Shown: one piece after another, positions 4,916-41,766 of the stretch
How positions within the stretch are numbered: the first letter of the stretch is position 1
Layout of the letters: each line of letters starts with the position of its first letter
Notes under the pieces: generated by a model
The model's input: only the letters and a program-made list of their open reading frames with translations
What the model was told of the DNA's origin: nothing
Database searches by the model: none
Made by a program: the position numbers and the translations under genes
Assembly: GCF_005406125.1 (NCBI RefSeq)
Contig: NZ_BIXZ01000003.1
Location: 124,001-188,000, forward strand
Direction: 5' to 3'
DNA length: 64,000 bases
Source: Haloarcula mannanilytica
Lineage (GTDB): Archaea > Halobacteriota > Halobacteria > Halobacteriales > Haloarculaceae

Positions 4916-4998
4916 AGGCGGATTTCCTTTGCAGTAGTTCGATTGTCACCGACACCAGCGACCCCGGTTTTTGTATGGCTCGGCACCCAGCTTCCGGT

Positions 4999-6297
4999 AT
5001 GAACTTCCCCGACCGAGGCGACGTGGACCACCTCATCGACCCACAGCCGCTCCCGGGATTCGCTCGCGTCCGGTACGAGCCGGAGACGGCGGCCGTCGAC
5101 GACCCGGCGGCCGCGGCACGGGCCGAACTCGACCGGCTCGACTTCGATGGGCTGGAACCGGGCGCAACCGTCGCCGTCGCCCTCGGCAGCCGCGGCATCC
5201 ACCGCATCGACGACATCGCCGGAGCCGTCGTCGAGGCGGTCCGCGAGCGGGGCTTCGAACCGATAATCGTCCCGGCGATGGGGAGCCACGGCGGCGCGAC
5301 GCCTGCGGGCCAGCGCGAGGTTCTGGAGAGTCTTGGCATCACGGAGGCACGGCTCGACGCTGAGATTGACGCTCGGATGGACACCGACCGGGTCGACACC
5401 GTCACCGTCGGCAACACCCAACTCCCGGTCCACGTCTCGACGGCAGCGCAGGAGGCCGACGCCGTGGTCGTGGTCAATCGGGTGAAGCCCCACACTAACT
5501 ACAGCGGACCCATTGAGAGCGGGCTGACGAAGATGACCGTCGTCGGGCTCGGCAAGCAAAACGGTGCAAAGGCGTTCCACTCGACGGCCATCGCGGAGGG
5601 CTACGTCGAGACGCTCGAAGCCGCGCTCCCGGTCGTTGAGACGGCGCTGCCGCTGGTGGGCGGCATCGCGCTGGTCGAGAACTTCCACGAGGAGACCGCC
5701 CACGTCGAAGCGGTTGCGGCGGGGTCGTTCACCGACCGCGAGCCAGCGCTGCTGGAGCGGGCCTACGACGAGATGGCGACCCTTCCGGTCGACGACATCG
5801 ACCTGTTGGTCGTCGACGAACTCGGCAAGGACATCTCGGGTGCAGGGATGGACACCAACGTTATCGGTCGCTACCGTGTCCTCAACGCCCCGGACCCCGA
5901 TGAGCCGGCGATCAAACTGCTGTACGCTCGCGGGCTCACTGCGGCGACGACGGGCAACGGCAACGGCATCGGGTTGGCAGACATCACCCGCCGGGCCGCC
6001 GTCGACCAGCTGGACTTGCAGAAGACGTACGCGAACGCGCTCACAAGCGGGTCGACGGCGAAGGCGAAGCTCCCGCTCGTCGCGCCGGACGACGAGTTCG
6101 CCATCCGGGCGGCGCTATCCGCGCTCGGCGGCTACGACCCCGACACCGTCCGCATCGTCTGGATACGGAACACACAGGACCTGTCTACGTTGCACGTCTC
6201 CGAACCGCTTGTCGACGACCTGCCGACTGCCACCACCGTCACCGACCGGGTGTCGCTCTCCTTCGACGACGGCACGGCGTCGTTGGCCCGCGACTGA
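4999..6297 (+). CDS. LarA-like (DUF2088) protein, possible nickel-dependent racemase homologue
   Basis: A 432-aa protein with the LarA N-terminal-like domain: an early Gly-rich VALGSRGIHRID segment, IIVPAMGSHGGATPAGQ, and the NRVKPHTNYSGPIESGLTKM segment that follows the Rossmann-like fold. Characterised LarA is a lactate racemase using a pincer-nickel cofactor made by LarB, LarC and LarE, none of which is in this window. LarA-like proteins of this kind are diverse and many have other 2-hydroxyacid or unknown substrates. The neighbouring D-lactate-type dehydrogenase, facing it tail to tail 39 bp away, makes a lactate connection plausible. An in-frame ATG at 4975 is an alternative start. Confidence 0.7.
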   Translation: MNFPDRGDVDHLIDPQPLPGFARVRYEPETAAVDDPAAAARAELDRLDFDGLEPGATVAVALGSRGIHRIDDIAGAVVEAVRERGFEPIIVPAMGSHGGATPAGQREVLESLGITEARLDAEIDARMDTDRVDTVTVGNTQLPVHVSTAAQEADAVVVVNRVKPHTNYSGPIESGLTKMTVVGLGKQNGAKAFHSTAIAEGYVETLEAALPVVETALPLVGGIALVENFHEETAHVEAVAAGSFTDREPALLERAYDEMATLPVDDIDLLVVDELGKDISGAGMDTNVIGRYRVLNAPDPDEPAIKLLYARGLTAATTGNGNGIGLADITRRAAVDQLDLQKTYANALTSGSTAKAKLPLVAPDDEFAIRAALSALGGYDPDTVRIVWIRNTQDLSTLHVSEPLVDDLPTATTVTDRVSLSFDDGTASLARD

Positions 6298-6336
6298 GAC
6301 GGAGCGGAGTCGCCGGCCAGGGTTCGCTCGCGCCCG

Positions 6337-9300: not shown

Positions 9301-9387
9301 CGCGAGGTCCCGATACGCATCCACGTCCGGTCGGTCGAGGTCCAGTTCCGCTGCTGACCAGGTATCCTCGACGTTTTCGATGGCCAT
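6337..9387 (-). CDS. FAD-linked D-lactate-type dehydrogenase with fused Fe-S/CCG domain
   Basis: A 1016-aa three-part protein. Residues about 45-290 form a PCMH-type FAD domain (PRGTGSSLAGQAVG; NRASVGGGIGNNSTGAHSV), and about 290-560 the FAD-oxidase C-terminal domain with a metal-site-like AHAGSGTLHIRP. From about 610 to 720 there are two 4Fe-4S clusters (CNGCGTC...CP and CVGCKGCKSDCP), and the C-terminal third has a CCG domain (STCCGMAGSFGYHDEHY). This architecture matches large D-lactate or 2-hydroxyglutarate dehydrogenases that feed electrons to quinones at the membrane. It is encoded convergent with the LarA-like gene. Substrate is inferred from family and context. Confidence 0.85.
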   Translation of the reverse strand: MAIENVEDTWSAAELDLDRPDVDAYRDLATELRSRVSGGVEFDEYARILYATDGSIYRAEPAGVVYPTDVDDVQAAVEVATDHGVPIMPRGTGSSLAGQAVGPGCVVLDMSRHMDGILDVRPDEKSAHIQPGVVQDDLDDALADYGLKFAPDPASSNRASVGGGIGNNSTGAHSVRYGITDAYTDAVKAVLSDGSLIHAREVVIDSPEWDDIVSKDDREAEIYQTVREIIEENAEEIEARYPDLKRRVSGYNLDRVVYENDDGEQVMNLAKLFVGSEGTLGVIVEAELSLVTVPEETALALYCFDTLADAMQAVPVALDYDVSAVELMDDEVFRLAAGSDGYAEYVGPIPDRAAAALMLEYDSELHDDFEAAIARTTERFVDEGAAFDVVEAYTEADQDDLWKLRKAAIPLLMSMDGDPKPYPFIEDATVPPAELAEYVEKFEEILADHDTSAAYFAHAGSGTLHIRPILNLKEESGIEDMHSIADDVTDLVLEHNGSFSGEHGDGMARTEFNPKMYGDALWNAFKEVKTAFDPQWWLHPGNVVYRDGPEDIGPDADRGIGADMRENLRYGPDYQSLEPQTTLDFEDEGGFSHLVELCNGCGTCRQTDGDVMCPTYRASNEEVQATRGRANLLRSAISGDLDEDEIHSERFQEEVLDLCVGCKGCKSDCPTGVDMAKLKTELKHQHHEKEGTSRRERLFANIDTASKIGSALAPISNWATELPGARLVMQKVFGIAPERELPTFRRETLRDWFDDRGGSAVSRAEADRKVLLFPDTYTNYSYPAAGKAAVETLEAAGVHVAIPDDTAPSGRAAYSSGMLDLARERAETNATRLSDRVADGWDVVFVEPSDAVMFQDEYRDLLDGPEVSRVADSAYGVLEYLDTFRLDDALPVEDRSLGTAGSVSYHGHCNQKGTNKDHHAVGVMRRVGYEVDPLDSTCCGMAGSFGYHDEHYDLSKTIGRLLFDKVDESDGDRVVAPGGSCRSQLGDRDGVDDIPPHPIEVVAERLSDATTGSRSV

Positions 9388-9487
9388 ACAGGTATTCAGG
9401 AGTAATAATCATTAAAATCTGTGCATGCGGTCACAGTTTTCCGCTACGGCCCACCAGTTATTTGCCGCGGGGCGTCGGAAGCGGTGT

Positions 9488-9868
9488 ATGGGCAGTGCAA
9501 GCGTACTCCACATGTGTCTGAACGTCGCTGACGCGGCGGAATCGATCGCGTTCTACGAACAATTTGGCTTCGAGAAGTCCTGGCAGTTCACCACGCCGGA
9601 CGGCGAGACGACGAACTACTACGTGGCCGACGACGACGGCGTCGAACTGCAACTCTCGGAAACAGAGGGGGAGACGAACTTCGAGATGGGCAGTGGCTGG
9701 GACCACCTCGCGCTCGGCGTGGACGATGTCGACGCAACGGTCGAACGCATCGACCACCACGGCGTCGTCAAGGAGCCAGGACCCCAACCCGAGGCCGGCG
9801 CGTACACGGCCTTCGTCGCGGACCCCGACGGTCACCACGTCGAACTCATCGAACCGCTCGAAGACTGA
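9488..9868 (+). CDS. Glyoxalase I-like VOC-family protein
   Basis: A 126-aa vicinal-oxygen-chelate protein with two beta-alpha-beta-beta-beta modules. The four expected metal ligands are in place: His8 (VLHMCLNV), Glu53 (GVELQL), His73 (WDHLALGV) and Glu119 (DPDGHHVELIEP). This is the lactoylglutathione-lyase pattern, converting a methylglyoxal-thiol adduct to a lactoyl thioester. Haloarchaea use gamma-glutamylcysteine rather than glutathione, so the thiol would differ. I chose the ATG at 9488; an earlier in-frame start at 9425 adds 21 basic residues. It lies divergent from the D-lactate-type dehydrogenase. Confidence 0.85.
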   Translation: MGSASVLHMCLNVADAAESIAFYEQFGFEKSWQFTTPDGETTNYYVADDDGVELQLSETEGETNFEMGSGWDHLALGVDDVDATVERIDHHGVVKEPGPQPEAGAYTAFVADPDGHHVELIEPLED

Positions 9869-9945
9869 AAAATTCGAAGCCTGCAGCGCTCAAAAACTGA
9901 ACCGCGCCCACGGCGTTTCGAATGACGAAATGCTGACGACGGTCG

Positions 9946-11253
9946 TCAGTTCCCGACGGCCGTGGCGCGCTCGACGATGTCAGCGCCGTACATCTCCTCT
10001 AGTTCCTCATGCTGGTCCGGACGGTGCTCGTACACGTCCTGGAACAGCGTGATGGGCGTCTGGGCGGCCTGATAGGTTGCCTCGTCCCACATCCGGTCCT
10101 TGCTGATGTCCACCTCGACACCGTCGATGACCAGCGTGGCAGCCTGGGTCATCGCGATGGCACCCTTGCCGGCCTCCTTGGCGGCCTCGAACTCCTCCAT
10201 GGAGTCGACGATGTCGTTCATGCTGGGGATGTACGCGGTGCGGTCGAGCAGTTCCTCGGTGAGTTCCTCCTCGTCGAGTTCCAGTCGCTCACCGCCCGCC
10301 TGCAGGACGTATCCGCCGTCGCCATCCGTTTCAAGTGAGAGGTCGTCGCCGTCGTACACCTGCTTGCCGTCCCGTGCTTCGAGTTCGACTTCCTGCCCGC
10401 CGACCTCGAGCAGCCAGCTGCCGGTCTTCGGCGGGAGCGGAGCCGTGTTCGCCTCCACGACCTGGCCCGGCGTCAGCGACCAGATGCCGGTCATCCCCTT
10501 CGCGCGGTTGTCCTTCATCCGCTCGCGGTAGCCCTCGACATCGCGGATGTCGTCGTAGGGACCGTCGACGGCGATGAGGCCCGCAGCGCTGGCCCCGCGG
10601 GAGGTGTTGTGCCGCAGTTCGGGCCACGGCGGGAGTTCGCCGGTGGGCGTCATCGCGCGCATGTCTTTCGTGTAGTCGACCTCACCGTCGACGAGCAGGA
10701 ACATGCGTTCGAGGTTGTTCGAGGGCTTGCCCATCTCCTCGCGCAGGTCGCCCATCGCCAGTTCGGCCTCGCCGCTCTCGACGATGACCGACATCGAGAG
10801 GCTCCCTTCTTCGAGGCCGTGCTCGTGCTCGATGATGGTGAAGAACTCGTCGGCCTTCTTCCAGTCGTCGATGTCGCCCACCTCCGGGATGACGAAGCCG
10901 TCGATGTGGTCGACTGCGCCGTTGTCGGGGTCGGCGATCTCGAGCATCTGCTGGAACCCCTGGTAGCGGGTCGACGGCGACTCGCGGTGCCAGACGACCC
11001 GCGGGTGGATTTCGCCGGGGAACTCGGCACCCTGTTCGGCGACGACTTCGATGATGTTCTGGACGCCCTCCTCGCGCATGTTCGGCGCCGTCGCGTCCTC
11101 GTTGTCCGGGACCCAGACATCCGGGGCCTGCAGGCCGCGGAGTTGGCCCGCGCTCCGAAGCATCTTCGCGGAGTCGTCCTCCCCGTCGACGGCTGTCGGA
11201 GAGGTAAAGAACGTTCTGACGAACTCGCGGTCGTAGTGTCGCGTCACACTCAT
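9946..11253 (-). CDS. aceB: Malate synthase, haloarchaeal type
   Basis: A 435-aa protein very similar in length and sequence to the distinct small malate synthase described from Haloferax. It condenses glyoxylate with acetyl-CoA to malate. Recognisable features are the N-terminal VPDNEDATAPNMREEGVQNI, the HPRVVWHRESPSTRYQGFQQ segment and the C-terminal MTQAATLVIDGVEVD. No isocitrate lyase gene is near. In Haloarcula the glyoxylate is supplied by the methylaspartate cycle rather than by isocitrate lyase, which fits. The gene has its own TATA box (11283-11289) about 30 bp upstream of the ATG, implying a leaderless transcript, and it faces away from an IclR regulator. Confidence 0.92.
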   Translation of the reverse strand: MSVTRHYDREFVRTFFTSPTAVDGEDDSAKMLRSAGQLRGLQAPDVWVPDNEDATAPNMREEGVQNIIEVVAEQGAEFPGEIHPRVVWHRESPSTRYQGFQQMLEIADPDNGAVDHIDGFVIPEVGDIDDWKKADEFFTIIEHEHGLEEGSLSMSVIVESGEAELAMGDLREEMGKPSNNLERMFLLVDGEVDYTKDMRAMTPTGELPPWPELRHNTSRGASAAGLIAVDGPYDDIRDVEGYRERMKDNRAKGMTGIWSLTPGQVVEANTAPLPPKTGSWLLEVGGQEVELEARDGKQVYDGDDLSLETDGDGGYVLQAGGERLELDEEELTEELLDRTAYIPSMNDIVDSMEEFEAAKEAGKGAIAMTQAATLVIDGVEVDISKDRMWDEATYQAAQTPITLFQDVYEHRPDQHEELEEMYGADIVERATAVGN

Positions 11254-16748: not shown

Positions 16749-19700
16749 ATGCGGCTTTCGACAGCGCTCAACGAGTACAAGCGGACTCGCCACGAGCGCT
16801 TTCCAGAGGAACGACGGACTGTTTCAGGCTCTTTCTCCGGGCACGGTGACCGCCTCGTACACGTCGGCGAAGACGGCACACTGAAGGACTACTCCGATTC
16901 GCTCTCCGGGCTCTCCGGTATCGACCGCTCCCGACTCGGCGTGATGTCTGGGGACGAGACGCGGTGGTTCAGCGACCTGGAGACCATCAGACAGCACTAC
17001 TACCGCGAGACGCGACTCGTCGAGACCGAATACGATGCAGGGTCGTTCACGGTCCACCAATACGACCTGACGCTGGGGCGGGCACACGTCACACACGTCG
17101 CGATGCGTGGGGCTGTGCCACAGGACGCCAAGCTCGTGGCGTTCGTCACGCTGGCCCCCGAAGGCAGTGACAGCGGCGTCGGCTCGCTCATCCACGAAGA
17201 CGCCGGACCCGACGGCTCGCGTGTTCTGGAGGTGTACCACCGCCGGGAGCACGATTACCTCGCCTCCTCGACCGGCCTCGACGCCGTCGCCGGGCAGCGG
17301 CCCGAACGCCTCGCGGAGATTCTCGACGACAGCCCGGTCGCGTTCCCGCGGTCGGAACCGGTCGAACGGCGCGACCAGACGCGGCTCACCGGCGATTTCC
17401 TCGTGACCGCCCCGCTCGACCGGTCCGGGCGCAGCAAGGACACGACGCTCGTCAGCCAGCTCTCGAACCACAACGAGGTCGACCGTGAGACGGCGCTCAT
17501 CGACCTCGCCGACTGCGTGACGGCGCATACGACTGCCGACGACCTCCGGCAGGCCGGTCGGGAACGAACGCGTATCGACGTGGACGAATCGGTGCCGCGC
17601 TCGGAGTCGATACGGATGGACCTGCGGGTGCTTGACTTGCTGTCCTCACCGACCGGCGGTCGGATCGCCGCCCCGGAGTTTGACCCCTTCTACTCGAACT
17701 CCGGCGGCTACGGCTACGTCTGGTTCCGCGACGACGCCTCGGTCTCCCGGCACCTGCTCGAAGCCGGTGACCGGCTCGACATCGACACCGCGGAGATGCT
17801 GACAGAGAGCGCGCAGTTCCTCTGTGACAGCCAGCTTCCCGACGGCCGGTGGCCCCACCGCGTGTGGGCCGACAGCGGAGCCATCGCGCCGGGCTGGGCC
17901 AACGCCAGAGTCGAGCACAACGCCGAGTCGCCGGAGTATCAGGCCGACCAGACTGCGACGGTCACGGCCTTCCTCGCGACGATGCTGCGGACACACCGCA
18001 GCGCGTTAGACACCGAACTGACGGCGACGGTCCGAGAGACTATCGAGTCGGCCGTCGACACGCTCATCGAAGACATCGCGGCCAACGACCTGCCAGAACC
18101 GTGCCAGAACGTCTGGGAGGACTCCATCGGCCAGTTCACGCACACTACTGCGACGTTCATCGAGGCCTTCGCCGCGGTGGCTCGTGCCCCGATGGGCGAG
18201 GCGGTCCGCGAGCGGAGCCTAGCAGCGGCCGACCAGCTGCTTGACGGTCTCGATACGCTCTGGGATGAGGACCTCGGCGTGTACGTGATGGGGCTGACAA
18301 ACGGGACGCCCGACCACCGCATCGACGCCGCGGCGCTCCACCTCGCCGACGCACTGCAGGAGTACGACAGCGTTGAAACGACCGAACTGCCCGACCAACA
18401 GCTCACTCGCCTGGCCGACCACGTGAGCACGACACTCGATACGCTCTTTCGGAACCCGACCGAGAGCCAGGTCGCAGGCCTCGCCCGCTACGAGGGCGAC
18501 CGCTGGCGGACCGGCCATCAGGACAGCGAGAAGATCTGGACCGTCACGACGGGGATGGGAGCCCTCGCCGCTGCCCGCGTCGGCGACATGCTGAACGACC
18601 GCGACGGGAGCGGCGACGCCTACCTCGACCGAGCAAGCGACCTGTACGAACTGCTCGCCGACGACGGCCCGCTGGCGACCGATGCCGGCTACCTCGCCGA
18701 ACAGGCCTTCGACGATGGCGACCTCGACAGCGCGACGCCGCTTGGCTGGTCGCACGCGCTGCGGCTTCACGCGACCGCGCGCCTGGGAGAGTTGAACGCG
18801 CTCCCAACGACCTCGGCCAGCACCGAGGGGCCGAGCGAGCGCCCGACCTGGACGACCGGAGAGAAGTACGGCGTCGGCACCGTCGCCGACCACGACGAGC
18901 CGGACCCTTCACGCGTCTGGTTTACGCTCACCGAGGGCGCGCTGACGGAGGCCCGCTACCCGCAGGTCGACCTGATGAACCTGCGGACGCTCGATTTCCT
19001 GGTCCGGTGTACGGACGAGACGGACTACGCCGTCCGGACCCACCGGGAGAACCGCCGGACCGACGACACCGTCAGGCGTCGCGTCGAGCCGGTCGACGAC
19101 GAGGCGTTGCTCTATCGGCACGTCTTCACCGAAACCGGGGACGGCCGGGGCCACGAGTGGACGCTGACCGTCGACTACGCGACCGACCCCGAACACGACG
19201 CCATCGTCGCCGATGTGTCCTTCAGCGCCGACGACGGCAAGTCCTACGACGTGTTCTCGGTCGCCGACATCGCGCTCACCAGTACGGTCACCGAGGACCG
19301 CGCCATCAGATACGGCCAGCCCGGGAGCTACCACCTCGTCGGCCGGAACCCCCACGCCTACACCGACCAGACGGACAACGACCTGCTCGTCGACGAGAAC
19401 GGCGACGCCTACTCCATCGCCGTGGCGATGGCCGCGGCCGGGCGCTTCGACTGGGCCACTGTCGGCGCGGCCGGCAGCGACCGCCTCGACGGGCTGTACT
19501 CCGACGGCGACCTCCCGGACCCACTCGAAGACATCGACGGGACGAACCTCGTCCTCATCGGCCGGCTGGACTCGGGAACCAGAGTCAGCGACACGGTCGC
19601 GCTCGGCTTCGCGCGGCAAGCTGACACCGCTGCCGCGCTGGGCGAAGCCGACGGGGCGCTCGACCGCGGCTACGAGACGGTCAGCGCCGAGTACGCCGAT

Positions 19701-21284
19701 AGCTGGGCTGAGTTCCTTTCGGACAAGCAACTCCCGGAGTCGGTCGCCGACGACGCGGACCTGGCGAACCAGTACCGGACCGCGCTGATGACGCTGCTGG
19801 CGGTCGAGGACAAGACCTACCACGGCGCATCCATCGCCTCGCCGTCCGTGCCGTGGGGCGAAGCCGTCCACGCCGAGGAACCCAAAGGCTACGGCTACAA
19901 CTTCGTCTGGTCCCGTGACCTCTATCAGGTGTTCAGCGTCTTCGACGCCATCGGGTCGCTTGACATCGCGGCCGACCAGCTGGAGTACATCTACGAGTAC
20001 CAGCAGGACGACGCCGGCTTCATCCCGCAGAACACCTACGTCAACGGGACGACCCGCTGGGGCGGCGAGCAGATGGACAACATCTCGTTCCCGCAGGTGA
20101 TGGCCTATCGCCTCGCCGAGAACGGCGTCGACTTCGACGATGTCGACTACAGCTACGAGAACGTCCGGCGGTCCGCCGAGTACGTCGTCCGCCACGGCCC
20201 CGAGACCGCCCAGGAGCGCTGGGAGGAGGAAGCCGGCTTCTCGCCGTCCTCGATTGCGACCGAGATCGCCGGCCTCGCCTGTGCGGCCAAGATCGCGCTC
20301 GACACCGGCCACGAGGCTGACGCGCTGATCTGGCTCGCGCTTGCGGACCACTGGGCGAACAACGTCGCGGCTTGGACTGCGACCGAGACCGGGACCGAGC
20401 GCCACACTCACACGCCCTACTACACCCGGGTAACGCTCGATGGCAACCCAGAGGCTGGGCATCTCCGGACGCTCGCCAACGACGGCCCGACGCTCGACGA
20501 GCGCAACATCATCGACGGCGGCTTCCTCGAACTCGTCCGACTGGGCATCAAGCCCGCCGACGACGAGATCATCCGGAACTCGCTCGTCGAGGTCGACGAC
20601 ACGATCAGCGTCGACACGGAGTACGCACCCGGGTTCTACCGGTACAACGGCGACGGCTACGGCGAACGCGGCCGGGGCGACCAGGGCGCGCCGTGGTCGG
20701 TCGAGCACAAGGGGAAGGGTCGCCTCTGGCCGCTGCTCACCGGCGAGCGCGGCGAGTACGAACTCCACCGCGACGACCCGGACATCGCGCCCGAGAACTG
20801 CCTCCGGATGATGGAGGACGTGGCGAACTCGGGGCGGATGATCGCCGAGCAGATCTGGGACCGCGGGCACGCGACCGATTACGACTGGGAGTTCGCCGAA
20901 GGGACCGGCTCGGCGACGCCGCTGGCGTGGTCGATGGCCCAGTACGTGCGGCTGGCCCACGGCATCAGCGCCGGCGAACCGGTCGAGACGCCGGCGTTCG
21001 TCGACGAGCGCTATCGCGAACGCAAGGCCCACACGCCGGACCGCAGTCCGGCGCTGCGCGTGGACACGCAGTTCCGCGGGAACGAACTCGTCGTCTCCGG
21101 CGAGACGACCGGCGTCCGCGTCGTCGTCAAGACGCCCGCCGATATCACATCCATCACCGTTGACGACCGGGAGTTCGAGGTCACGGTCGATGTCGACCCC
21201 GGTGAAAATCAGGTAATCGTTGCCGCTGCAGACGACGAGGACCTGGTCTCCGCCGGGACGACCGTCTGGCAGCTCAACCTGTAG
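16749..21284 (+). CDS. Giant glucoamylase with two GH15 modules
   Basis: A 1511-aa protein, about twice the usual glucoamylase length. The first half (about 1-650) has an N-terminal beta domain and a GH15-like helical barrel (GYGYVWFRDDASVSRHLLEA; DSQLPDGRWPHRVWADSG). The second half starts near residue 705 with a glucodextranase-N-type beta domain (GEKYGVGTVADHDEPDPSRV) and a second GH15 barrel (YGYNFVWSRDLYQVFSVFDA; QQDDAGFIPQNTYVNGTTRW), ending in a small beta domain. GH15 enzymes release glucose from the ends of alpha-1,4/1,6-glucans. There is no signal peptide. The halves are diverged, so an old fusion is more likely than a recent duplication. Confidence 0.9.
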   Translation: MRLSTALNEYKRTRHERFPEERRTVSGSFSGHGDRLVHVGEDGTLKDYSDSLSGLSGIDRSRLGVMSGDETRWFSDLETIRQHYYRETRLVETEYDAGSFTVHQYDLTLGRAHVTHVAMRGAVPQDAKLVAFVTLAPEGSDSGVGSLIHEDAGPDGSRVLEVYHRREHDYLASSTGLDAVAGQRPERLAEILDDSPVAFPRSEPVERRDQTRLTGDFLVTAPLDRSGRSKDTTLVSQLSNHNEVDRETALIDLADCVTAHTTADDLRQAGRERTRIDVDESVPRSESIRMDLRVLDLLSSPTGGRIAAPEFDPFYSNSGGYGYVWFRDDASVSRHLLEAGDRLDIDTAEMLTESAQFLCDSQLPDGRWPHRVWADSGAIAPGWANARVEHNAESPEYQADQTATVTAFLATMLRTHRSALDTELTATVRETIESAVDTLIEDIAANDLPEPCQNVWEDSIGQFTHTTATFIEAFAAVARAPMGEAVRERSLAAADQLLDGLDTLWDEDLGVYVMGLTNGTPDHRIDAAALHLADALQEYDSVETTELPDQQLTRLADHVSTTLDTLFRNPTESQVAGLARYEGDRWRTGHQDSEKIWTVTTGMGALAAARVGDMLNDRDGSGDAYLDRASDLYELLADDGPLATDAGYLAEQAFDDGDLDSATPLGWSHALRLHATARLGELNALPTTSASTEGPSERPTWTTGEKYGVGTVADHDEPDPSRVWFTLTEGALTEARYPQVDLMNLRTLDFLVRCTDETDYAVRTHRENRRTDDTVRRRVEPVDDEALLYRHVFTETGDGRGHEWTLTVDYATDPEHDAIVADVSFSADDGKSYDVFSVADIALTSTVTEDRAIRYGQPGSYHLVGRNPHAYTDQTDNDLLVDENGDAYSIAVAMAAAGRFDWATVGAAGSDRLDGLYSDGDLPDPLEDIDGTNLVLIGRLDSGTRVSDTVALGFARQADTAAALGEADGALDRGYETVSAEYADSWAEFLSDKQLPESVADDADLANQYRTALMTLLAVEDKTYHGASIASPSVPWGEAVHAEEPKGYGYNFVWSRDLYQVFSVFDAIGSLDIAADQLEYIYEYQQDDAGFIPQNTYVNGTTRWGGEQMDNISFPQVMAYRLAENGVDFDDVDYSYENVRRSAEYVVRHGPETAQERWEEEAGFSPSSIATEIAGLACAAKIALDTGHEADALIWLALADHWANNVAAWTATETGTERHTHTPYYTRVTLDGNPEAGHLRTLANDGPTLDERNIIDGGFLELVRLGIKPADDEIIRNSLVEVDDTISVDTEYAPGFYRYNGDGYGERGRGDQGAPWSVEHKGKGRLWPLLTGERGEYELHRDDPDIAPENCLRMMEDVANSGRMIAEQIWDRGHATDYDWEFAEGTGSATPLAWSMAQYVRLAHGISAGEPVETPAFVDERYRERKAHTPDRSPALRVDTQFRGNELVVSGETTGVRVVVKTPADITSITVDDREFEVTVDVDPGENQVIVAAADDEDLVSAGTTVWQLNL

Positions 21285-27832: not shown

Positions 27833-27954
27833 ATAGGCGGCCACAGCGGTGGGGTTGCCTCCCGTACCCATCCCGAACACGGAAGATAAGCCCACCAGCG
27901 TTCCGGGGAGTACTGGAGTGCGCGAGCCTCTGGGAAATCCGGTTCGCCGCCACA
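27833..27954 (+). rRNA. rrf: 5S ribosomal RNA, isolated copy
   Basis: About 122 nt with the complete haloarchaeal 5S sequence: GGCGGCCACAGCGGTGGGG, CCCGTACCCATCCCGAACAC, GGAAGATAAGCCCACCAGC and the 3' strand CGCCGCC closing against the 5' GGCGG. It agrees with my recollection of the Haloarcula marismortui 5S except near the 5' end and for GAAATCCGG where I expect GAAACCCGG; that change swaps a G-C for a G-U pair and keeps the stem. No 16S, 23S or tRNA gene flanks it within the window, so it is not in an rRNA operon. Ends are set by alignment to that recollection, good to 1-2 nt. Confidence 0.93.
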
Positions 27955-28145
27955 CCATTCATCTCGTATATAATCCATCGAGCGACGCGGATGTGCTGTC
28001 CTGCGTGGCATCCGTCTCGACCATGACGGACTCGTTCGTCTCTGTCCACGCTTCGTTTGAACGCGACAGTCAGACCGGGACTGGTCTTGAGACGACCGAT
28101 GGGTGGACAGGACGGACTTCTACAGGCGGAGTCGGCCGAGGCGGT

Positions 28146-29623: not shown

Positions 29624-31861
29624 ATGACCGCACAGGCCGACACGGAGATCGCCCCGGTGGTTCCCGCGCCGACGCCGCCGGACGACGCCGATGCCTGGTA
29701 CGCGCCGGACGTTCGGGAGCAAGACGAGGTGTATCCGGGCGTTGTCGTGACCGTCCGCCGGGAACGGAGCGGGTTCCGGTACAGTGTCCGGGATCCGGTG
29801 CTATCGACGGTCGAGGCTGACGCACTGTCGACCATCGAGTCGCACTTCGCCGGTGCGAACATCGAGCGCCCGCGGACCCGTGAGGGAGCCGTCGAGCGAA
29901 TGAACGGGGGTTTCGACGCGAAGCATCGACGGGTAATCGACCGGCTGATCGACGCGTCACCGGCGAGCCGACGGCGTATCGAGTACCATGCGCTCTCGTC
30001 GCTGGCGTGTTTCGCAGAGCTGACACCATATGCGCTTGATTCTCGCATCGACGTGGCCGACGTGACCGATGATGGTGTGGTCGTCCACACCGACGACTAC
30101 GCTCCGGCCGAAACGGATCTCGGCCCGGACCCCGAATATCTCAACCGCTTCGCGAGCGAGCGTGTCGAACGCCACACGGTTCGGTTTCAGGGCTTCGAGG
30201 TCCCGGTCGTCGTCTACCGCGAGCACTTGCTCGGTGCGGACCCGTTCACGACGAAATACGCTGTCCGCGAGCCGGACCTGCTCCCCGGCGACGAACAGCT
30301 CATCGAGGTGTGTAAGAAGCGCGTCTGGGAAACCGGGGTTAACGGCGTGGTCGACGACCGGGTGACCTTTGTCCGAGAGCGTGCGCGCTCGCTACTGGCC
30401 CGACAGCTGACTGTCCGCAACACGACCGAGTGGGTCGACGCCGCCCGCTATCGGGTCCGGTCGGCACTGGCCGAACTCGATCTGGCCGTGCCGCCGGTCG
30501 ATCATCGCTTCGCTGACGACCGCCTTGACGACCTGCTGTACTACGTCCTCCGAGACCTCGTCGGCTATGGGAAGCTCACCGTCCCGATTCGGGACCACAC
30601 GCTGGAGGATATCGAAGCGAACCGGGTCGACGAGCGGGTGAAGGTCCTGCCACGCGCTGACCTCGGCCACGACGGTCGTGTGCCAACCAATCTCGCTTTT
30701 GATTCGGAAGCGGCGTTCGTCAACGTCGTCACGCAACTGGCGGCCGACGACGGCGTCGAACTCAACGCATCGAACCCGAGCGCGAAGGTCAACATCGACC
30801 CCGACGGCGACGGACTGCACGACGCCGACGACACTATCCGCTGTGCCGTTGCCCTGCCGACTATCAGCGAGGGCGGGCCACACATCTCTATCCGGAAGCA
30901 GTCGGCCGACGCGATGACCCCGGTCGATCTGGTGCAGCGGGACTCGCTCCCGACGGAACTGGTCGCGCTGCTGTGGCTCCTCTATGAATCTCACGGCGTC
31001 GTTCTCTTCTCCGGACCGACTGGGGCAGGCAAGACGACGCTGATGAACGCCCATATGCCGTTTATCCCGTACCGCGACCGTCCCATCAGCATCGACGAAG
31101 GGTCACGCGAGGTCCGGATACCCCACGAGACCGGCGTCTCGCTCACCACCAGAGAGCACGAACGGGACCACCGCCGGGTGACGATGGCGGACCTGATGAC
31201 ACAGTGCAACTATCTCAATCCCGATGTCGAGGTCATCGCAGAGATCAACACCGCGGCGTCCTTCGAAACCTTTGCTGAGACGCTGAACACCGGCCATGGT
31301 GTCATCGGTACCACCCACGCTGACGACATCGATTCGCTGGTCAACCGCGTCATCGAGAAGGGCTTGCCGACCTACCTGCTCAAAGAGATCGACCTCGTTG
31401 TGTTCCCGCGTCACGTCGGCGGAGACCGGTACGTCGGCGACGTGGTCGAGTTCGTTGAGGACCCATCCGTCGTCGAGAGTGGGAGCGACCGGAGCGGGAC
31501 GATACACAAGGACGGGACGACTATCCACTGGAACAGCGTCTGCCGGCGGCGACCCGACGGGAGCTTCGATCTCGCCTACGACCACCCGCAGTTCGGGGAC
31601 GAGCAACGGCGGGTCGATACCGGCATTCTCGACCGGCTTTCGGATCTCCGGGACGAGCCGGTGTCGGCCGTCGAAGACGCGTTCCACCGCCGCCACCGCT
31701 ACGTGCAGTATCTCGTCCAGGAGGGATTGACCGACTTCGACGACCTGTTCGGCGTTCTGGCCGACTTAGAGACCAACGAGGCAGCGACCGTCGAGCGACT
31801 GCGGCGACAGGCCGGGGCGCCCGACGACCCGCAACTGGAGGTCAGTACGGGTGACGACTGA
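29624..31861 (+). CDS. Type IV pilus/secretion ATPase (PilB/TadA-like)
   Basis: A 745-aa member of the archaeal type II/IV secretion ATPase family. The N-terminal 300 residues are an acidic haloarchaeal domain. The C-terminal motor has Walker A GPTGAGKTT at about residues 464-472, the Asp-box DRPISIDEGSREV, Walker B-like DVEVIAEINTAASFETFAET and the His box GHGVIGTTHADDIDS. It should power assembly or secretion through the membrane platform encoded next. It is the first gene of an operon whose neighbours overlap by 4-11 bp. This gene set lacks archaellum motor accessory genes, so a pilus or protein-secretion role is more likely than motility. Confidence 0.9.
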   Translation: MTAQADTEIAPVVPAPTPPDDADAWYAPDVREQDEVYPGVVVTVRRERSGFRYSVRDPVLSTVEADALSTIESHFAGANIERPRTREGAVERMNGGFDAKHRRVIDRLIDASPASRRRIEYHALSSLACFAELTPYALDSRIDVADVTDDGVVVHTDDYAPAETDLGPDPEYLNRFASERVERHTVRFQGFEVPVVVYREHLLGADPFTTKYAVREPDLLPGDEQLIEVCKKRVWETGVNGVVDDRVTFVRERARSLLARQLTVRNTTEWVDAARYRVRSALAELDLAVPPVDHRFADDRLDDLLYYVLRDLVGYGKLTVPIRDHTLEDIEANRVDERVKVLPRADLGHDGRVPTNLAFDSEAAFVNVVTQLAADDGVELNASNPSAKVNIDPDGDGLHDADDTIRCAVALPTISEGGPHISIRKQSADAMTPVDLVQRDSLPTELVALLWLLYESHGVVLFSGPTGAGKTTLMNAHMPFIPYRDRPISIDEGSREVRIPHETGVSLTTREHERDHRRVTMADLMTQCNYLNPDVEVIAEINTAASFETFAETLNTGHGVIGTTHADDIDSLVNRVIEKGLPTYLLKEIDLVVFPRHVGGDRYVGDVVEFVEDPSVVESGSDRSGTIHKDGTTIHWNSVCRRRPDGSFDLAYDHPQFGDEQRRVDTGILDRLSDLRDEPVSAVEDAFHRRHRYVQYLVQEGLTDFDDLFGVLADLETNEAATVERLRRQAGAPDDPQLEVSTGDD

Positions 31862-33743
31862 GGGCGGCGGCACCCTCGGCTTGCTCGACCGGGGCCTGTA
31901 TGCCCTGTTTGCCCACCACGCCGAGGACGACCGGCACGCGAGCACCCGGGACCGCTACCGGGCCGCCTATCCGAGCACGGGCTTTGGCGTCTACGTCGCC
32001 AGAGTGTACGGGCTGTCGTGGCTAGCGCTTTTCGTCGGTATCGTCGGGACTGCGACGACGGCCCTGCTTGTCCCGTCCGGGACCTTCGACTCGTTCGTCG
32101 CGGTGCTCCAGCAGAGCCTCCCCGTGATCAATCGGTTGGCGCTCCCAGCGGTTCCCCGGAGTCTCACGGCTGCTGTCCTCGGAACCGTTGCCGGCCTCAC
32201 GCTCAAACGGGCCGTGTTCCTCGCCGGAAACCGGTATCTCTCGTGGGTTGCGAGCGCACGGAGTGCGGACATCGCAGCCACGCTCCCCGGTGCGGTCCGC
32301 TACCTCAGAGTCCTCGCGTCGGGAACGCACGACCGCCGCGAGATGTTACGCGCCGTCGCCGAACAGGATGCCTACGGCGAGACAGCTGTCGCCTTCCGGC
32401 GGGCGCTCAATCAGGGAATCCTAACCGGCAGCCTCGACACGGGTATCGAACGGGTAGCGAGCGAGACGCCATCGCGGGACCTGCTCGCCCCGTTCCTGCT
32501 GAAGTTCCGCGAACACGCGAATCAGAGCGCCGAGGCACTGGAGGGGTATCTAGAGATGGAGGGGCGGCTACTCTCACATGAGCAGAGCCGCCAGCACGAG
32601 CGCGCGACCGGCTACCTCGAACTGCTCGCCGAACTGTTCGTCGTGTTGCTTGTCCTGCCCGCGCTCGTGGTACTCATCGTCACCGTGATGGGAATCCTCG
32701 CGCCAGGACTCTCCGAACCAGTTACGACGCCGCTCGGAGAGACGACCGTCCGCGCCATCGTCGTCTACGGCAGTGCGGCGTTCGTGATGGCCGCCGGCTT
32801 GCTGGCAGCGTTCGTCGTCGCTACGCTCAGGCCGCGGAACACGGCCGCTCCGAGTTACAGCCTGCCGGACGGCCCCGTCGCGATACTCACTTCACTCCCC
32901 TCAAATCCTGCGAGTGCGCTTGTCGCCTGCGTGCCGTTGGGTGCCGTCGTTGCGGTCGGCCTTTGGTCGCTTGGCTATCGCCCGGTCAACGTCGCGCTCC
33001 TCTCGTACGCCACGGTGGGTATTCCGGTCGGCGCAGTGACGGTCCGGCGGGCCAGAACGGACGACGCGAAAGACCGGGAGATACAGGATTTCGTCCACGC
33101 TGTTGCCGGGCACGTCGCGCTGGGCCGCCCGTTCCCGGAGGCGGTCCGACGCGTCGCCGACGACGTAGAACTCGGCGCGCTCGCCAGCGATGTCCAGTCG
33201 CTCGCGTTCACGCTCTCACTGGGCGATAGTCCCGGTGATTCGGCGGCCGATAGACGGGCCGCCGCGCTGGACCAGTTCGTCGACCGTGTCGGCACGCCGA
33301 TGGCCGAACAGACTATCGGGCTGGTCGTCGGCGCGCTGGATACGGGAAGCGATGCGGAGGACGTGTTCGAAACATTACAGACTGAGATAGGTCAACTTTA
33401 CCACCTTCGGAAATCAATCCGCTCAGCACTGCTGGTCTACGTTGCAGTCGGCTGGACGACGGCACTTCTGGTCATCGGAATTACCGTCGCCGTCAACGTC
33501 TACGTCCTCGATAGTTTCGCGCAACTGTCGGCCGTCTCGGGCGGCGCGAACATCGCTTTCGACCCGACCGCGATCAAGCCGGCCCGGGAGCGACACCGGT
33601 TCTACGTCGTGACACAGGCGACGATGCTGGCCTGTGGCTGGTTCGCCGGCACGGCGAGTCGAGGGGTGTACGAGGCGCTGTTGCACTCCTCGGGGCTGGT
33701 ACTCATCGCCTACGTCGTTTTCGCGGGGGCTGGTCTGATTTGA
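31851..33743 (+). CDS. Pilus/secretion membrane platform protein (PilC/TadC-like)
   Basis: A 630-aa polytopic membrane protein with two T2SSF-type halves (helical cytoplasmic domains about 130-240 and 410-510), each followed by paired transmembrane helices, and a last hydrophobic stretch at the C-terminus (LVLIAYVVFAGAGLI). This duplicated arrangement is the usual one for archaeal pilus and archaellum platform proteins. The GTG start at 31851 overlaps the ATPase stop by 11 bp and is preceded by GGAGGT at 31837-31842, which fixes the start and suggests translational coupling. Confidence 0.88.
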   Translation: MTTEGGGTLGLLDRGLYALFAHHAEDDRHASTRDRYRAAYPSTGFGVYVARVYGLSWLALFVGIVGTATTALLVPSGTFDSFVAVLQQSLPVINRLALPAVPRSLTAAVLGTVAGLTLKRAVFLAGNRYLSWVASARSADIAATLPGAVRYLRVLASGTHDRREMLRAVAEQDAYGETAVAFRRALNQGILTGSLDTGIERVASETPSRDLLAPFLLKFREHANQSAEALEGYLEMEGRLLSHEQSRQHERATGYLELLAELFVVLLVLPALVVLIVTVMGILAPGLSEPVTTPLGETTVRAIVVYGSAAFVMAAGLLAAFVVATLRPRNTAAPSYSLPDGPVAILTSLPSNPASALVACVPLGAVVAVGLWSLGYRPVNVALLSYATVGIPVGAVTVRRARTDDAKDREIQDFVHAVAGHVALGRPFPEAVRRVADDVELGALASDVQSLAFTLSLGDSPGDSAADRRAAALDQFVDRVGTPMAEQTIGLVVGALDTGSDAEDVFETLQTEIGQLYHLRKSIRSALLVYVAVGWTTALLVIGITVAVNVYVLDSFAQLSAVSGGANIAFDPTAIKPARERHRFYVVTQATMLACGWFAGTASRGVYEALLHSSGLVLIAYVVFAGAGLI

Positions 33744-34465
33744 TTGGCGACACCGACGCCCAGTCCCACGTAGTCGGCGTGGTGTTGCTGTTGGGACTGA
33801 CCGTCGTCGCCCTCGGCGGACTGACGGCCGTCGTCGGAAGCGTCGTTGACGGCCACACGGCGACCGCCGACGAAACTCGCGTTGCCAACACCTTCGAGAC
33901 AGCGTTCCGGCCGGTCGAACAGACGGGCCAGCGGACCGCTCGCGTGCGGTTCACGGATGGGCGGCTGACTACCGTGGAACGTGAACTTCGGGTTCTCAAT
34001 GATTCCGGTGTTCAGCGAGCGGTCCCCATCGACGCGATGGTGTACGAGTCCGGCGACAACCGCGTTCGCTTCCTCGGCGGGAGCGTCGTCCGCGGGACAC
34101 AGGGGAACGCGTGGCTCGAGACAGACCTGCCCGTGACGGCGACGCGAGACGATACCGCAGTCATCGTCGGCGCACCGCTTGTCAACGCCAGCGGCGGGAC
34201 GGTCTCCGGAACCGGGGGTGTGACAGCTGGCATCCGACAAAACATCAGCCACGAGCGCGAGCGACTCCCGACCGACAACTACAGCGTTGCCATCGAGACG
34301 GAGACGCCCCGTCCGTTCGCCGAGTACTTCCAGCGGGTCGGTGCAACGACGCAAGTCAGAGATATCGACGGCGACGGCGTCCAGAGCGTCGTGGCGTCGT
34401 TCCCCGGCCAACGAACGCTGTATCTGGTCCGCCACGATATGCGGACGGAGGTGAGCCATGGATAA
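33740..34465 (+). CDS. Pilin-like single-helix protein 1
   Basis: A 241-aa protein starting at a TTG (33740) that overlaps the previous stop. N-terminus DTDAQSHVVGVVLLLGLTVV: a short charged leader, an Ala-Gln junction and a hydrophobic helix, resembling archaeal prepilins cut by PibD-type peptidase (after Ala, before Gln) and the VVGVVLLL helix of archaeal type IV pilins. The rest is a beta-rich acidic extracellular-type domain with several N-x-S/T sequons. It is the largest of five such proteins in the operon and could be the main subunit or tip. No characterised homologue was recognised. Confidence 0.75.
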   Translation: MIGDTDAQSHVVGVVLLLGLTVVALGGLTAVVGSVVDGHTATADETRVANTFETAFRPVEQTGQRTARVRFTDGRLTTVERELRVLNDSGVQRAVPIDAMVYESGDNRVRFLGGSVVRGTQGNAWLETDLPVTATRDDTAVIVGAPLVNASGGTVSGTGGVTAGIRQNISHERERLPTDNYSVAIETETPRPFAEYFQRVGATTQVRDIDGDGVQSVVASFPGQRTLYLVRHDMRTEVSHG

Positions 34466-34904
34466 CCGCGCGCTCAGTACGGTCGTCGAGAAACTGCTGA
34501 GCATGGGGCTGGTACTGCTGTACATCGGACTGGTGACGACGACGCTGTACGGTGGTACTGTCCCGGCATATCAATCTGCAGTCGGCGCTGAACTCGGTGA
34601 CCGAACGCTCGCCGAAGCGACGGCCCGCGTCGAACAGGCCATCCCGCCGGATGGCCGGACTGTCTCGACGACCGTCCGGGTCTCCCTTCCAGCTACTATC
34701 GACGGCACAGGGTACAGCATCCGGGCCGACGGCGACGCCCTCGTGCTTGACCATCCCGATCCTGAAATCGGCGGGTGGTCACAGTTGGTACTGCCTGACA
34801 GAGTTAATGCCCTCGAAGGTGAATGGCAGAGCGGCAGTCCAACGGTGGTCACCGTTTCCGGAACGCGGGGGCGGGTAACAGTGACACTGGAGGTGGAGCG
34901 ATGA
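34458..34904 (+). CDS. Pilin-like single-helix protein 2
   Basis: A 148-aa protein, ATG preceded by GGAGGTGA (34447-34454) inside the previous gene, overlapping it by 8 bp. N-terminus MDNRALSTVVEKLLSMGLVL: leader DNRA, possible cut before Leu, helix to about residue 32, then a small beta domain (TVSTTVRVSLPATIDGTGYS). The Glu at the end of STVVE sits near position 5 after the predicted cut, where type IV pilins have their conserved Glu. Single-pass, most of it outside the cell. Function unknown apart from the operon context. Confidence 0.72.
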   Translation: MDNRALSTVVEKLLSMGLVLLYIGLVTTTLYGGTVPAYQSAVGAELGDRTLAEATARVEQAIPPDGRTVSTTVRVSLPATIDGTGYSIRADGDALVLDHPDPEIGGWSQLVLPDRVNALEGEWQSGSPTVVTVSGTRGRVTVTLEVER

Positions 34905-35605
34905 CCGGGATGAGTCGCTGCCCCGCTCACACCGAGCGCGCCCAGACATCGCTGCCGGCACTGGGAATCGCGCTCGTGTTGCTGACAGTCGTCACGGGAT
35001 TGGGCGTTTCGATGGCCGACGCTGCGATTGCTGGCGCGGAACGGACCCCTGACGAGCGGCGGGTCGCAGCCGCTATCGCTGACCGACTTGTCTCGGCTGA
35101 CGGCCCGCTGGCTGCCCGGAGCAACGTACTCAACCGTTCCCGGGTGGACGATTTCGACCAGTCGGCCCTCGAACGGAGCGCGCCGCCGGCCACCGAGTAC
35201 GCAGTATCGGTCGAGGTGGCCGATACGGAAATTGCGAGCAGTGGAGCGGTTCACAGCGGGACTCAGATCACGCGACTCGTTGTGGTCGAAGCCCGTGAAT
35301 CACGGACGCTGACGCCCGACCTGACGACGACGGACACAGTGACGCTCCCTCGCCGGAGCGCACAGGCCACAGTAACAATCGACCCGCCGGCCGGCACTAC
35401 GATCTGGACAGTCCGTGCCAATGACCGGGTCGTCCTGCACAACCGGAGCGGGCTGGATGGCAGCTACGAGGTTCCGCTGATTCCCTATGAGACGACTGAG
35501 CTCCGCTTCCAGCGAGCCGGCTCGATCCAACCCGGAAACGTAACCGTTAGCTACGACGCCCCGCGGTCAACGAAGGAATCGCTGGTGGTGACTGTCGATG
35601 CGTAG
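34901..35605 (+). CDS. Pilin-like single-helix protein 3
   Basis: A 234-aa protein; its ATG overlaps the preceding TGA (ATGA) and follows GGAGGTGG at 34889-34896. Leader MTGMSRCPAHTERA is followed by QTSLPALGIALVLLTVVTGL, again an (R)A-Q junction before a helix. The remaining 190 residues are beta-rich with N-x-S/T sequons (LNRSR, HNRSG, GNVTV), in line with a surface-exposed, possibly glycosylated domain. The longer in-frame extension to 34823 lies within the previous gene and is rejected. Confidence 0.72.
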   Translation: MTGMSRCPAHTERAQTSLPALGIALVLLTVVTGLGVSMADAAIAGAERTPDERRVAAAIADRLVSADGPLAARSNVLNRSRVDDFDQSALERSAPPATEYAVSVEVADTEIASSGAVHSGTQITRLVVVEARESRTLTPDLTTTDTVTLPRRSAQATVTIDPPAGTTIWTVRANDRVVLHNRSGLDGSYEVPLIPYETTELRFQRAGSIQPGNVTVSYDAPRSTKESLVVTVDA

Positions 35606-36002
35606 AGGTCAGCTCCCGCTGTCACTCGTCGAGGTTGCGCTCGGGACGGTGCTGATTCTCGGCGTCGCGCTCGGGTTCGCACTGGGGACGCCAGCGCCGG
35701 ACAGACAGGGACCACAGCTCGATGCGTACGCTTCCGATACGGCGGCGGTTCTCGCGAACGATCCGCCGCGACACGATGGGGCGACACGGCTCCAGGAAAT
35801 CGTTGCGAGCCCGGCGGCGTTCGACCGTGAACGGGACGCACTCGCGGATCGAGTCACTCGTATCCTACCCGAGAACATCCTCTTCCGTGTCGAGACGCCA
35901 CACGGTGCCGTCGGAACCCCGACACCCAACGGCGTCAGTACCGGGACCACAACTGTACCGACGGGACACGGCAGCGTCCGAATTATCGTGTGGTACGCAT
36001 GA
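35598..36002 (+). CDS. Pilin-like single-helix protein 4
   Basis: A 134-aa protein overlapping its predecessor by 8 bp. It begins MRRGQLPLSLVEVALGTVLI: Arg-Gly before Gln is a good match to the (K/R)G-Q prepilin cleavage pattern, and a Glu follows a few residues into the helix (SLVEVALG) as in type IV pilins. The exterior part is short (about 95 residues) with a region YASDTAAVLANDPPRHDGAT. Size and motif fit a minor pilin or initiator subunit. Confidence 0.72.
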   Translation: MRRGQLPLSLVEVALGTVLILGVALGFALGTPAPDRQGPQLDAYASDTAAVLANDPPRHDGATRLQEIVASPAAFDRERDALADRVTRILPENILFRVETPHGAVGTPTPNGVSTGTTTVPTGHGSVRIIVWYA

Positions 36003-36532
36003 CCCGGCGCGGGCAGCTGGTCCTCGTCGCGGCCACAGTCGTCGCTGTCGCACTCGTCCCCATCGTCCTCGCCTCGCTGCAACTGGGCTATCACGACGAT
36101 GTTCGTGCGTCGGCTGACTACGACGACGACCCCTCGGCTGACGCCCTCCGAGTCCTGGAACGTGCTGTCGCAACGGAGAGCGCACAGATTCCGAGCCAGT
36201 ACGCCTGGGCCGCGAGAGATGCGGCGGTGACGGCCGTTCGTACAGGATTGCGGCCGCGGCTCGACCGACTCGAAACGTCCCGCATCGAAGACGGCGTCCA
36301 TTACAATATAACCTACAACGGTACCGCGACACAGCAGTGGAGAGACAGTAACTGCCCATCCGGCCCGGACCGCCAGTTTGGGGACTGTGTCGTCGACCGT
36401 GGCGTCGTCGTTCAGGACCGTGTGGGCCGCACGCACGTTCTCGCTGTCGGTGTCGATCTAACGACGACGACCGAACGCGGCGAAGCCACTGTCACTGTGG
36501 TTCTGGAACCCAGCGGTCGATCATCGCGGTGA
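35999..36532 (+). CDS. Pilin-like single-helix protein 5
   Basis: A 177-aa protein, last gene of the operon, ATGA overlap with the previous stop. It begins MTRRGQLVLVAATVVAVALV, again RRG-Q before a long hydrophobic helix. The external part contains a Cys pair (NCPSGPDRQFGDCVV) that could form a disulfide, and sequons NITYNGT. An in-frame start nine bases earlier is less likely than the coupled ATG. The operon ends here; a convergent lipoprotein gene starts its 3' end 54 bp away. Confidence 0.72.
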   Translation: MTRRGQLVLVAATVVAVALVPIVLASLQLGYHDDVRASADYDDDPSADALRVLERAVATESAQIPSQYAWAARDAAVTAVRTGLRPRLDRLETSRIEDGVHYNITYNGTATQQWRDSNCPSGPDRQFGDCVVDRGVVVQDRVGRTHVLAVGVDLTTTTERGEATVTVVLEPSGRSSR

Positions 36533-40444: not shown

Positions 40445-41002
40445 TCAGAACTCCCACTGCTGAGCGCGCTCGCGGGCCTCCGAGCGCGCCTGGTCTTTGA
40501 TCGCCTCGATTTTCTCCGTGTCGTCGAGGAACGCCTCGACGGCGCTTCGTTCTGTGGCTCCGTCCTCGGTCGTCGCCACGTCGTCGCTACCCGTCGGTGA
40601 CAGCCGCTCATCGGGGGCCGCCCGTCGTGTGCTATCAGCCAGTGCTGGGTCCCCACCCAGGCGCTCGGCGGGCATTCCGGGCGGGACCCGAAGGTCGGCT
40701 GCGTCGTGCGCCGATTCGAGGTCGGCGGGATCGAGGGCGTACAGCGAGACGTGATACGGGCCGGGGATAGCGAGGTCCGCGAGCGCTGGCGGGCCGCCAC
40801 GGTCAGTGCCGGTGTGGTAGGCCAGCACCGGCACGCCGTCGGTGAACGTGATGACGCCACGGCCCTCACCGTCGAGCAGGAGCGTCTCCTGTGACTCGAA
40901 GACGGCGTAGCCGGTCAGTTCGCGGTCGAGCACGTCAGCCAACGTGTCCCGCGGGTCCGTGACGACGCGGGACTTGTCGAGTCGGCCGCGGGGCAGCTTC
41001 AT
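40445..41002 (-). CDS. Unknown partner of the MinD-like ATPase
   Basis: A 185-aa protein whose ATG overlaps the stop of the upstream minD-like gene by 4 bp, so the two are co-translated. Residues 15-110 form a compact alpha/beta domain (ELTGYAVFESQETLLLDGEG, then GVITFTDGVPVLAYHTGTDR) with weak resemblance to DUF4388-like regulatory domains; the rest is a disordered acidic region ending in a basic helix (KIEAIKDQARSEARERAQQW). Such a tail could bind the ATPase or the membrane. No function is known. Confidence 0.72.
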   Translation of the reverse strand: MKLPRGRLDKSRVVTDPRDTLADVLDRELTGYAVFESQETLLLDGEGRGVITFTDGVPVLAYHTGTDRGGPPALADLAIPGPYHVSLYALDPADLESAHDAADLRVPPGMPAERLGGDPALADSTRRAAPDERLSPTGSDDVATTEDGATERSAVEAFLDDTEKIEAIKDQARSEARERAQQWEF

Positions 41003-41766
41003 CGTGACTCGGGGATGACGGCGCTCTGGAACCGGTCGGCGGCGTCGGCGGCGGTCCCGTCCTGGACTGTGAGCGCCTCGGCGGCCGCCCGGTAGGCGGT
41101 CGCCGCCTCGCATTCGGGGGCGTGGGCCAGTAGCGGCCGACCGGCGCGGCGTGCCTCGCGGGCGCGCTCGCTTTCGGGGACCGACGCCAGCGTCGGCCCG
41201 TCGAAGTACCGCTCGGTCTTGGCCGAGACCTCCTCGATAGACTCGGACTCGCGGACCTTGTTGAACAGGAGGCCGGCCACGTCCGTGTCGTAGGTCGTCG
41301 CGTACTCCTGGACCTTCAGGCCGTCCGAGATGGCTGGAATCGTCGGCTGGAGGACGACGACGATGCGGTCGGCCAGCACGATCGGAAGCACGGCGGTCCG
41401 GCTGTCAAGTGCCGGCGGCGAATCGAGGAGGATGACCTCCGTGTCTTCTGCGAGCGTCGCGACCACGTCCCGGAGCCGACTCGGGTCGGCGTCCCTGAAC
41501 CCGTCTAGGCTCGTTCCGCAGGGGACGACTGTCAGCCCGAACCGGTCGTAGGTGGCCGCTTCGACTGGCGCGTCGTCGGCCAGCACGTCGTGTAGCGTCG
41601 TCTCGGCGTCGGAGAGGCCCGCGTGAAAGAGGAGGTTCGCCATCCCCGTGTCGGCGTCGACCACCGTCACGTCGTAGCGGTCGGCAAGCGCCATTCCGAG
41701 GGCGACGGCGCTTGTCGTCTTGCCGGTCCCCCCCTTCCCGCTGGCGACCGCGAACACTTCGACCAT
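40999..41766 (-). CDS. MinD/ParA-family ATPase
   Basis: A 255-aa P-loop ATPase with the deviant Walker A motif KGGTGKTT at residues 11-18 (two lysines, as in MinD/ParA), VTVVDADTGMANLLFH and the Walker B-like VILLDSPPALDS. Haloarchaea have several MinD paralogues that position archaella, chemoreceptors or other polar complexes. No clear membrane-targeting amphipathic helix is seen at its C-terminus. It is transcribed ahead of, and coupled to, the unknown 185-aa partner, which is probably its adaptor. Confidence 0.88.
   Translation of the reverse strand: MVEVFAVASGKGGTGKTTSAVALGMALADRYDVTVVDADTGMANLLFHAGLSDAETTLHDVLADDAPVEAATYDRFGLTVVPCGTSLDGFRDADPSRLRDVVATLAEDTEVILLDSPPALDSRTAVLPIVLADRIVVVLQPTIPAISDGLKVQEYATTYDTDVAGLLFNKVRESESIEEVSAKTERYFDGPTLASVPESERAREARRAGRPLLAHAPECEAATAYRAAAEALTVQDGTAADAADRFQSAVIPESR

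Follow-up and report, generated by a model that had tools for sequence, protein, structure and literature searches.

What is built by an operon that couples a pilus-type ATPase and a platform protein to five small fibre-type proteins, none of which has previously been studied individually? The operon lies in Haloarcula mannanilytica, within a stretch of 64,000 nucleotides that we analyzed as a whole and call the window (contig NZ_BIXZ01000003.1, positions 124,001 to 188,000). A first-pass annotation had placed its seven genes at 29624-36532 on the forward strand, with neighbors overlapping by 4-11 bp. These coordinates are correct, with successive overlaps of 11, 4, 8, 4, 8 and 4 bp, and all seven genes (pilB, pilC and the five prepilin genes) are intact (Table 1). 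Each prepilin gene scores above the curated cut-off of its own Pfam family (DUF7289, DUF7266, DUF7263, DUF7262 and DUF7261, in gene order), with E-values from 1e-51 to 1e-83. The DUF7289 protein has weak extra matches to Pilin_N (7.5e-5, under the Pilin_N cut-off) and to DUF7266. The operon is very probably a haloarchaeal type IV adhesion pilus system of the pil-2 kind, putatively belonging to subclade 4C.

Table 1. Features of the operon, in window coordinates
Feature	Coordinates	Strand	Evidence
PilB-type (VirB11/TadA family) assembly ATPase, 745 aa, N-terminal domain of ~300 residues	29624..31861	+	Pfam T2SSE, E=1.9e-22; P-loop GPTGAGKTT at residues 464-472
pilB Walker A codons and adjoining GAACGC, empty here; mobile-element integration site in relatives	31013..31048	+	
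PilC/TadC platform, 630 aa, two T2SSF domains, at least 6 hydrophobic segments	31851..33743	+	Pfam T2SSF, E=8.3e-18, 2 stretches; hydropathy
Prepilin 1, DUF7289, TTG start, junction DA/QSHVVG	33740..34465	+	Pfam, motif and helix
Prepilin 2, DUF7266, junction RA/LSTVVE	34458..34904	+	Pfam, motif and helix
Prepilin 3, DUF7263, junction RA/QTSLPA	34901..35605	+	Pfam, motif, model
Prepilin 4, DUF7262, junction RG/QLPLSL	35598..36002	+	Pfam, motif
Prepilin 5, DUF7261, junction RG/QLVLVA	35999..36532	+	Pfam, motif, model

According to hydropathy, each of the five small proteins has a single hydrophobic helix directly after a [DR][AG] junction. The first-pass annotation had read these N-termini as prepilin-like leaders, a view that would fail if most of them were Sec signals or plain anchors. 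We collected 60 named haloarchaeal loci with DUF7262 and searched each for all seven genes, obtaining 59-60 orthologues per prepilin family. In four families, every orthologue has Arg at position -2; in DUF7289, 58 of 59 sequences have either Arg or Asp there. Across the five families, position -1 is Ala or Gly except for a single Ser, and position +1 is Gln in 56-60 orthologues of four families, the exception being DUF7266. Upstream of the junction, the leaders vary freely in sequence and length. A fixed junction next to a freely varying leader is what selection on a peptidase site would produce. Conservation of the junction is ~100%, as against a mean column identity of 49% and 43% in the two prepilin families that were aligned in full. 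Judged by motif and by conservation among orthologues, all five leaders are of the class III type. A protein could be anchored by such a hydrophobic helix on its own, so the five might be plain membrane anchors, or carry Sec signal peptides with only a superficial likeness to prepilins. However, we find this scarcely credible, as the R-A/G junction occurs in nearly all 59-60 sequences of each family, next to a pilus platform gene.

Two further properties of these proteins had been described less exactly. Two of them do have a Glu near the start of the mature protein, but at positions +6 (DUF7266) and +8 (DUF7262) rather than about five residues past the junction. The Glu is present at +6 in 16 of 59 DUF7266 orthologues and at +8 in all 60 of those of DUF7262. 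The five prepilins therefore do not follow the Glu5 rule of bacterial type IVa pilins. N-glycosylation sequons, which had been attributed to the outer domains in general, are found in DUF7289, DUF7263 and DUF7261, but not in the other two. The genome encodes a single prepilin peptidase (Peptidase_A24), on contig C2 and unlinked to the operon.

The ATPase and platform superfamilies are common to this operon and to the archaellum (ArlI, ArlJ), and the nearest solved relatives of the window ATPase are 2oap, CpaF and FlaI. However, the window ATPase scores 131 bits against the ArlI/FlaI model, whose cut-off is 550. The true ArlI of this genome is elsewhere on contig C2 and scores 883.6 bits. Four paralogues from this genome were included in the pilB tree, and the window ATPase is clearly separate from them. 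The ATPase and PilC families, the leaders and the ArlI score thus sustain the earlier description of a complete module for pilus-type assembly that has several distinct subunits and stands apart from the archaellum.

A similar operon, pil-2, is known from Halobacterium salinarum R1 (OE1347R-OE1332R) and was found in haloarchaea only (PMC4292770). It consists of seven co-transcribed ORFs over 6.9 kb, namely PilB2, PilC2 and five further ORFs (PMC4292770). The window operon likewise has seven ORFs over 6.9 kb, with an ATPase, a platform and five small genes. By contrast with the intact window genes, R1 pilC2 has an in-frame stop and NRC-1 pilB2 is interrupted (PMC4292770). Moreover, FlaFind called three prepilins in pil-2 (PMC4292770), whereas all five in the window operon match the motif. 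The halobacterial subclade-4C type IV pilus system includes PilB1 and PilB2 of Hfx. volcanii, and has pilins in common with the PilB4 system (PMC4858521). As in the 4C system (PMC4858521, PMC6491452, PMC9856176), the window operon has an ATPase-platform pair with its own pilins, and the 4-nt overlap between Hfx. volcanii pilC1 and the next pilin gene (PMC6491452) recurs with the window pilC. All five DUF families are above cut-off in the Hfx. volcanii control genome, a 4C carrier, where presence was scored genome-wide. The window differs from the 4C system in that no tubulin-family (cetZ) gene lies within 20 kb of the operon, the nearest being ~36 kb off. Putative orthology to the pil-2/4C loci is suggested by gene content, order, size and overlaps, together with the Hfx. 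volcanii family control.

This operon type and its adhesion role have thus already been reported in other species. The first-pass annotation knew of no characterized function, which does not hold for the system, characterized as pil-2, 4C and in pilB1-C1 adhesion, but does hold for the five families, which remain Pfam DUFs without an assigned function. Our literature search found no paper that names DUF7289, DUF7266, DUF7263, DUF7262 or DUF7261. With the present analysis, all five can be assigned to one known pilus system as its pilin set.

In Hbt. salinarum, pilB2 is 8.5-fold higher in adherent cells (PMC4292770). Loss of pilB1-C1 in Hfx. volcanii lowers adhesion, and PilB3-C3 can replace PilB1-C1, while the reverse fails (Legerme and Pohlschroder, PMC6491452). 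The co-transcription, the induction on attachment and the adhesion defect of these related loci argue for reading the window operon as one for an adhesive fibre.

Type IV filaments elsewhere serve in DNA uptake or in contact between cells, and the window operon could encode a pilus of this kind rather than one for surface adhesion. Later work on Hfx. volcanii, which proposes specialized roles for PilB1/C1 (PMC12240190), would be in keeping with such a function. However, adhesion is the phenotype in the only direct mutant data, and we recognized no DNA-uptake gene among the window neighbors that were scanned. We therefore regard a DNA-uptake or contact pilus as quite unlikely.

For an adhesive type IV pilus, we propose that the five small proteins would enter the membrane via their class III leaders and that the single PibD-type peptidase of the genome would cut them after Ala or Gly. 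PilB would hydrolyze ATP beneath the PilC platform, and the cut proteins would be drawn up by their N-terminal helices to form a heteromeric fibre, which may cross the S-layer and help the cell attach to surfaces. Cleavage by PibD, drawing-up by PilB and PilC and assembly through the N-terminal helices are taken from established knowledge of type IV pili.

AlphaFold2 models of DUF7263 and DUF7261, built with 43-44 sequences, appear to fit the general pilin plan of a long N-terminal helix and a head. The DUF7263 model (pLDDT 90.4) has an N-terminal helix of 30 residues, a second helix and a beta-rich head. The DUF7261 model (pLDDT 89.2) has a 28-residue helix and an alpha/beta head, and two Cys residues are nearly invariant in this family. 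A fold search with the two heads retrieved no solved structure, hence no known pilin, at E<1e-3, and a PDB sequence search with the two profiles found nothing. Beta-sandwich and lectin-like matches of the DUF7263 head (LecB, 1ous; TM-score to target 0.42) were too weak to use. A common origin of the five outer domains is undetectable, and the only likeness is between the N-termini of DUF7289 and DUF7266.

The order of ATPase, platform and five prepilins is kept in most of the 60 named loci, which represent more than 20 genera, all of them halophilic archaea. The full seven-gene order spans Haloarcula, Halorubrum, Halobacterium and the divergent Actinarchaeum halophilum (L086). Small genes without a platform would have spoken against a joint machine, but PilC adjoins them in 58 of the 60 loci. 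In one of the other two (L032), the upstream part consists of other genes, and the second (L047) is a 3.8-kb contig. pilB is absent from the stretch, shortened or displaced in ~12 of the 60. In a Haloplanus MAG in which pilB and pilC are not adjacent, a salactin gene (PF25229) is immediately 5' of pilC (L077:3936-5117).

DUF7263 is above cut-off in 79 of 194 sampled class members, nearly always as a single copy, and the N-terminal domain of the ATPase was found in 110 of the 194. Much of this surplus comes from genomes whose pilB-pilC pair has no adjoining prepilin genes; all eight such loci that were read lack an adjacent prepilin gene (L100-L104, L108, L109 and L111). The pilB tree places these pairs at different positions inside clades of full operons, e.g., beside Halorubrum with the full operon, although long branches make the position of L108 and L109 uncertain. 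Given this separate nesting, the five prepilin genes were probably lost more than once beside a retained pilB-pilC pair. Repeated loss agrees with the published remark that Natrialbales are often without pilB2, or have a pilB2 outside a regulon (PMC9856176).

A pilB-pilC pair without an adjacent pilin gene has either to work with pilins supplied in trans or to stand idle, and the occurrence of such orthologous pairs in several lineages bears on what the five proteins do. Instead of making up most of the fibre, they might form a priming or tip complex of minor pilins, with a PilA-type pilin encoded elsewhere as the bulk subunit. The five outer domains are all different and without detectable relation, unlike interchangeable major pilins, and Makarova et al. 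class several such families as minor pilins (PMC4858521). However, for the 4C locus the same census singles out one family as the likely major pilin (PMC4858521), and PilB1-C1 of Hfx. volcanii does not make PilA pili (PMC6491452), which favors a system with its own major subunit. We consider a role restricted to minor pilins possible, if rather unlikely.

Two more sets of five prepilins occur in the H. mannanilytica genome itself (G000), on contig C4 (L114:8884-12062 and L115:4015-8840). Their families are DUF7287, DUF7288, a DUF7261-like family, DUF7266 and DUF7289, and one set is beside an 832-aa PilB. The presence of this set next to the 832-aa PilB fits the published sharing of pilins with the PilB4-type system (PMC4858521). 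The contig C4 sets resemble the window operon in having five prepilin genes in a row and in including relatives of DUF7289, DUF7266 and DUF7261. They differ in that DUF7287 and DUF7288 replace DUF7263 and DUF7262, with no detectable homology between the two pairs, and in that the 832-aa ATPase is only distantly related to that of the window. DUF7289, DUF7266 and DUF7261, which recur in the other pilin sets of the genome, may thus be a shared core, whereas DUF7263 and DUF7262 are specific to the window-type system. Separating three shared from two system-specific subunits makes the division of labor among archaeal pilins testable.

Several relatives carry inserts within or between pilB and pilC. 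Beta-glucanase genes (GH16 and GH81/CBM56) separate pilB from pilC in Haladaptatus pallidirubidus (L042:914-5020) and Halorussus aquaticus (L048:763-4893). The secreted glucanases in these two relatives, and the combination of five distinct pseudopilin-like subunits with one ATPase and one platform, are what might be expected of a short pseudopilus that expels proteins, like the piston of bacterial type II secretion with its five pseudopilins. However, the glucanases have twin-arginine signals of their own, according to their sequences, and are present in only 2 of 60 loci. Moreover, the operon holds no other secretion component, and the published phenotypes concern adhesion. A secretion piston is accordingly very unlikely. 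Elsewhere, a gene for a LanM-like lanthipeptide synthetase (DUF4135 and LANC_like) is found between pilB and pilC (L126:4254-7400), and in Haloarcula argentinensis a Hachiman defense pair (HamA, HamB) stands in place of the 3' portion of pilB and the 5' portion of pilC (L031:2149-5791).

The freshest lead of the analysis is an insertion site within pilB. In three loci, pilB is split directly after the Walker A codons (L125 in genome G041, 2600-10720; L105 in genome G161, on the reverse strand; and L081, 4170-4200). At its right end, the insert has CTACTAGTAG, then 12 bases, then GAACGCNCACATGCC. This right-end pattern occurs in 4 of 391 genomes, belonging to three genera (L128-L131), and the reversed control gave 0. 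In all four pattern-bearing genomes, pilB resumes at NAHMP. The L125 insert encodes a tyrosine recombinase (PF00589), has the palindrome TCTACTAGTAGA at both ends and doubles the target GAACGC. Joining its flanks yields GPTGVGKTTLMNAHMPFIPYRD, which leaves the pilB frame unbroken. A related integrase gene, together with two related small genes, adjoins a pilB fragment in another locus (L041). A 10-kb insert with an integrase gene has also been described in pilB2 of NRC-1 (Losensky et al., PMC4292770). We found no free viral genomes with a joined attachment site in viral_contigs.

It is conceivable, but doubtful, that integrating elements control the pilus, such that insertion after the Walker A codons would turn it off and precise excision would restore it. 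For comparison, prophages integrate into and excise from comK in bacteria. If such control exists, the elements would target a stretch of codons that the host can hardly change, and a virus receptor could be lost along with the target gene. The prepilin genes have apparently been lost repeatedly, and the insertions fall exactly at the P-loop codons; both point to strong evolutionary pressure, perhaps from viruses.

We now note some other genes of the window. A MinD/ParA-type ATPase is encoded ~4.5 kb downstream of the operon (41002-41766, reverse strand), and a very similar gene also adjoins pilC in L108 and L109. A 1511-aa protein with glucodextranase N-terminal and GH15 domains is encoded at 16749-21281 on the forward strand, next to a nucleotidyltransferase gene. 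A lone 5S rRNA gene occupies 27833-27955 (forward strand), with no 16S or 23S rRNA found in the 64 kb.
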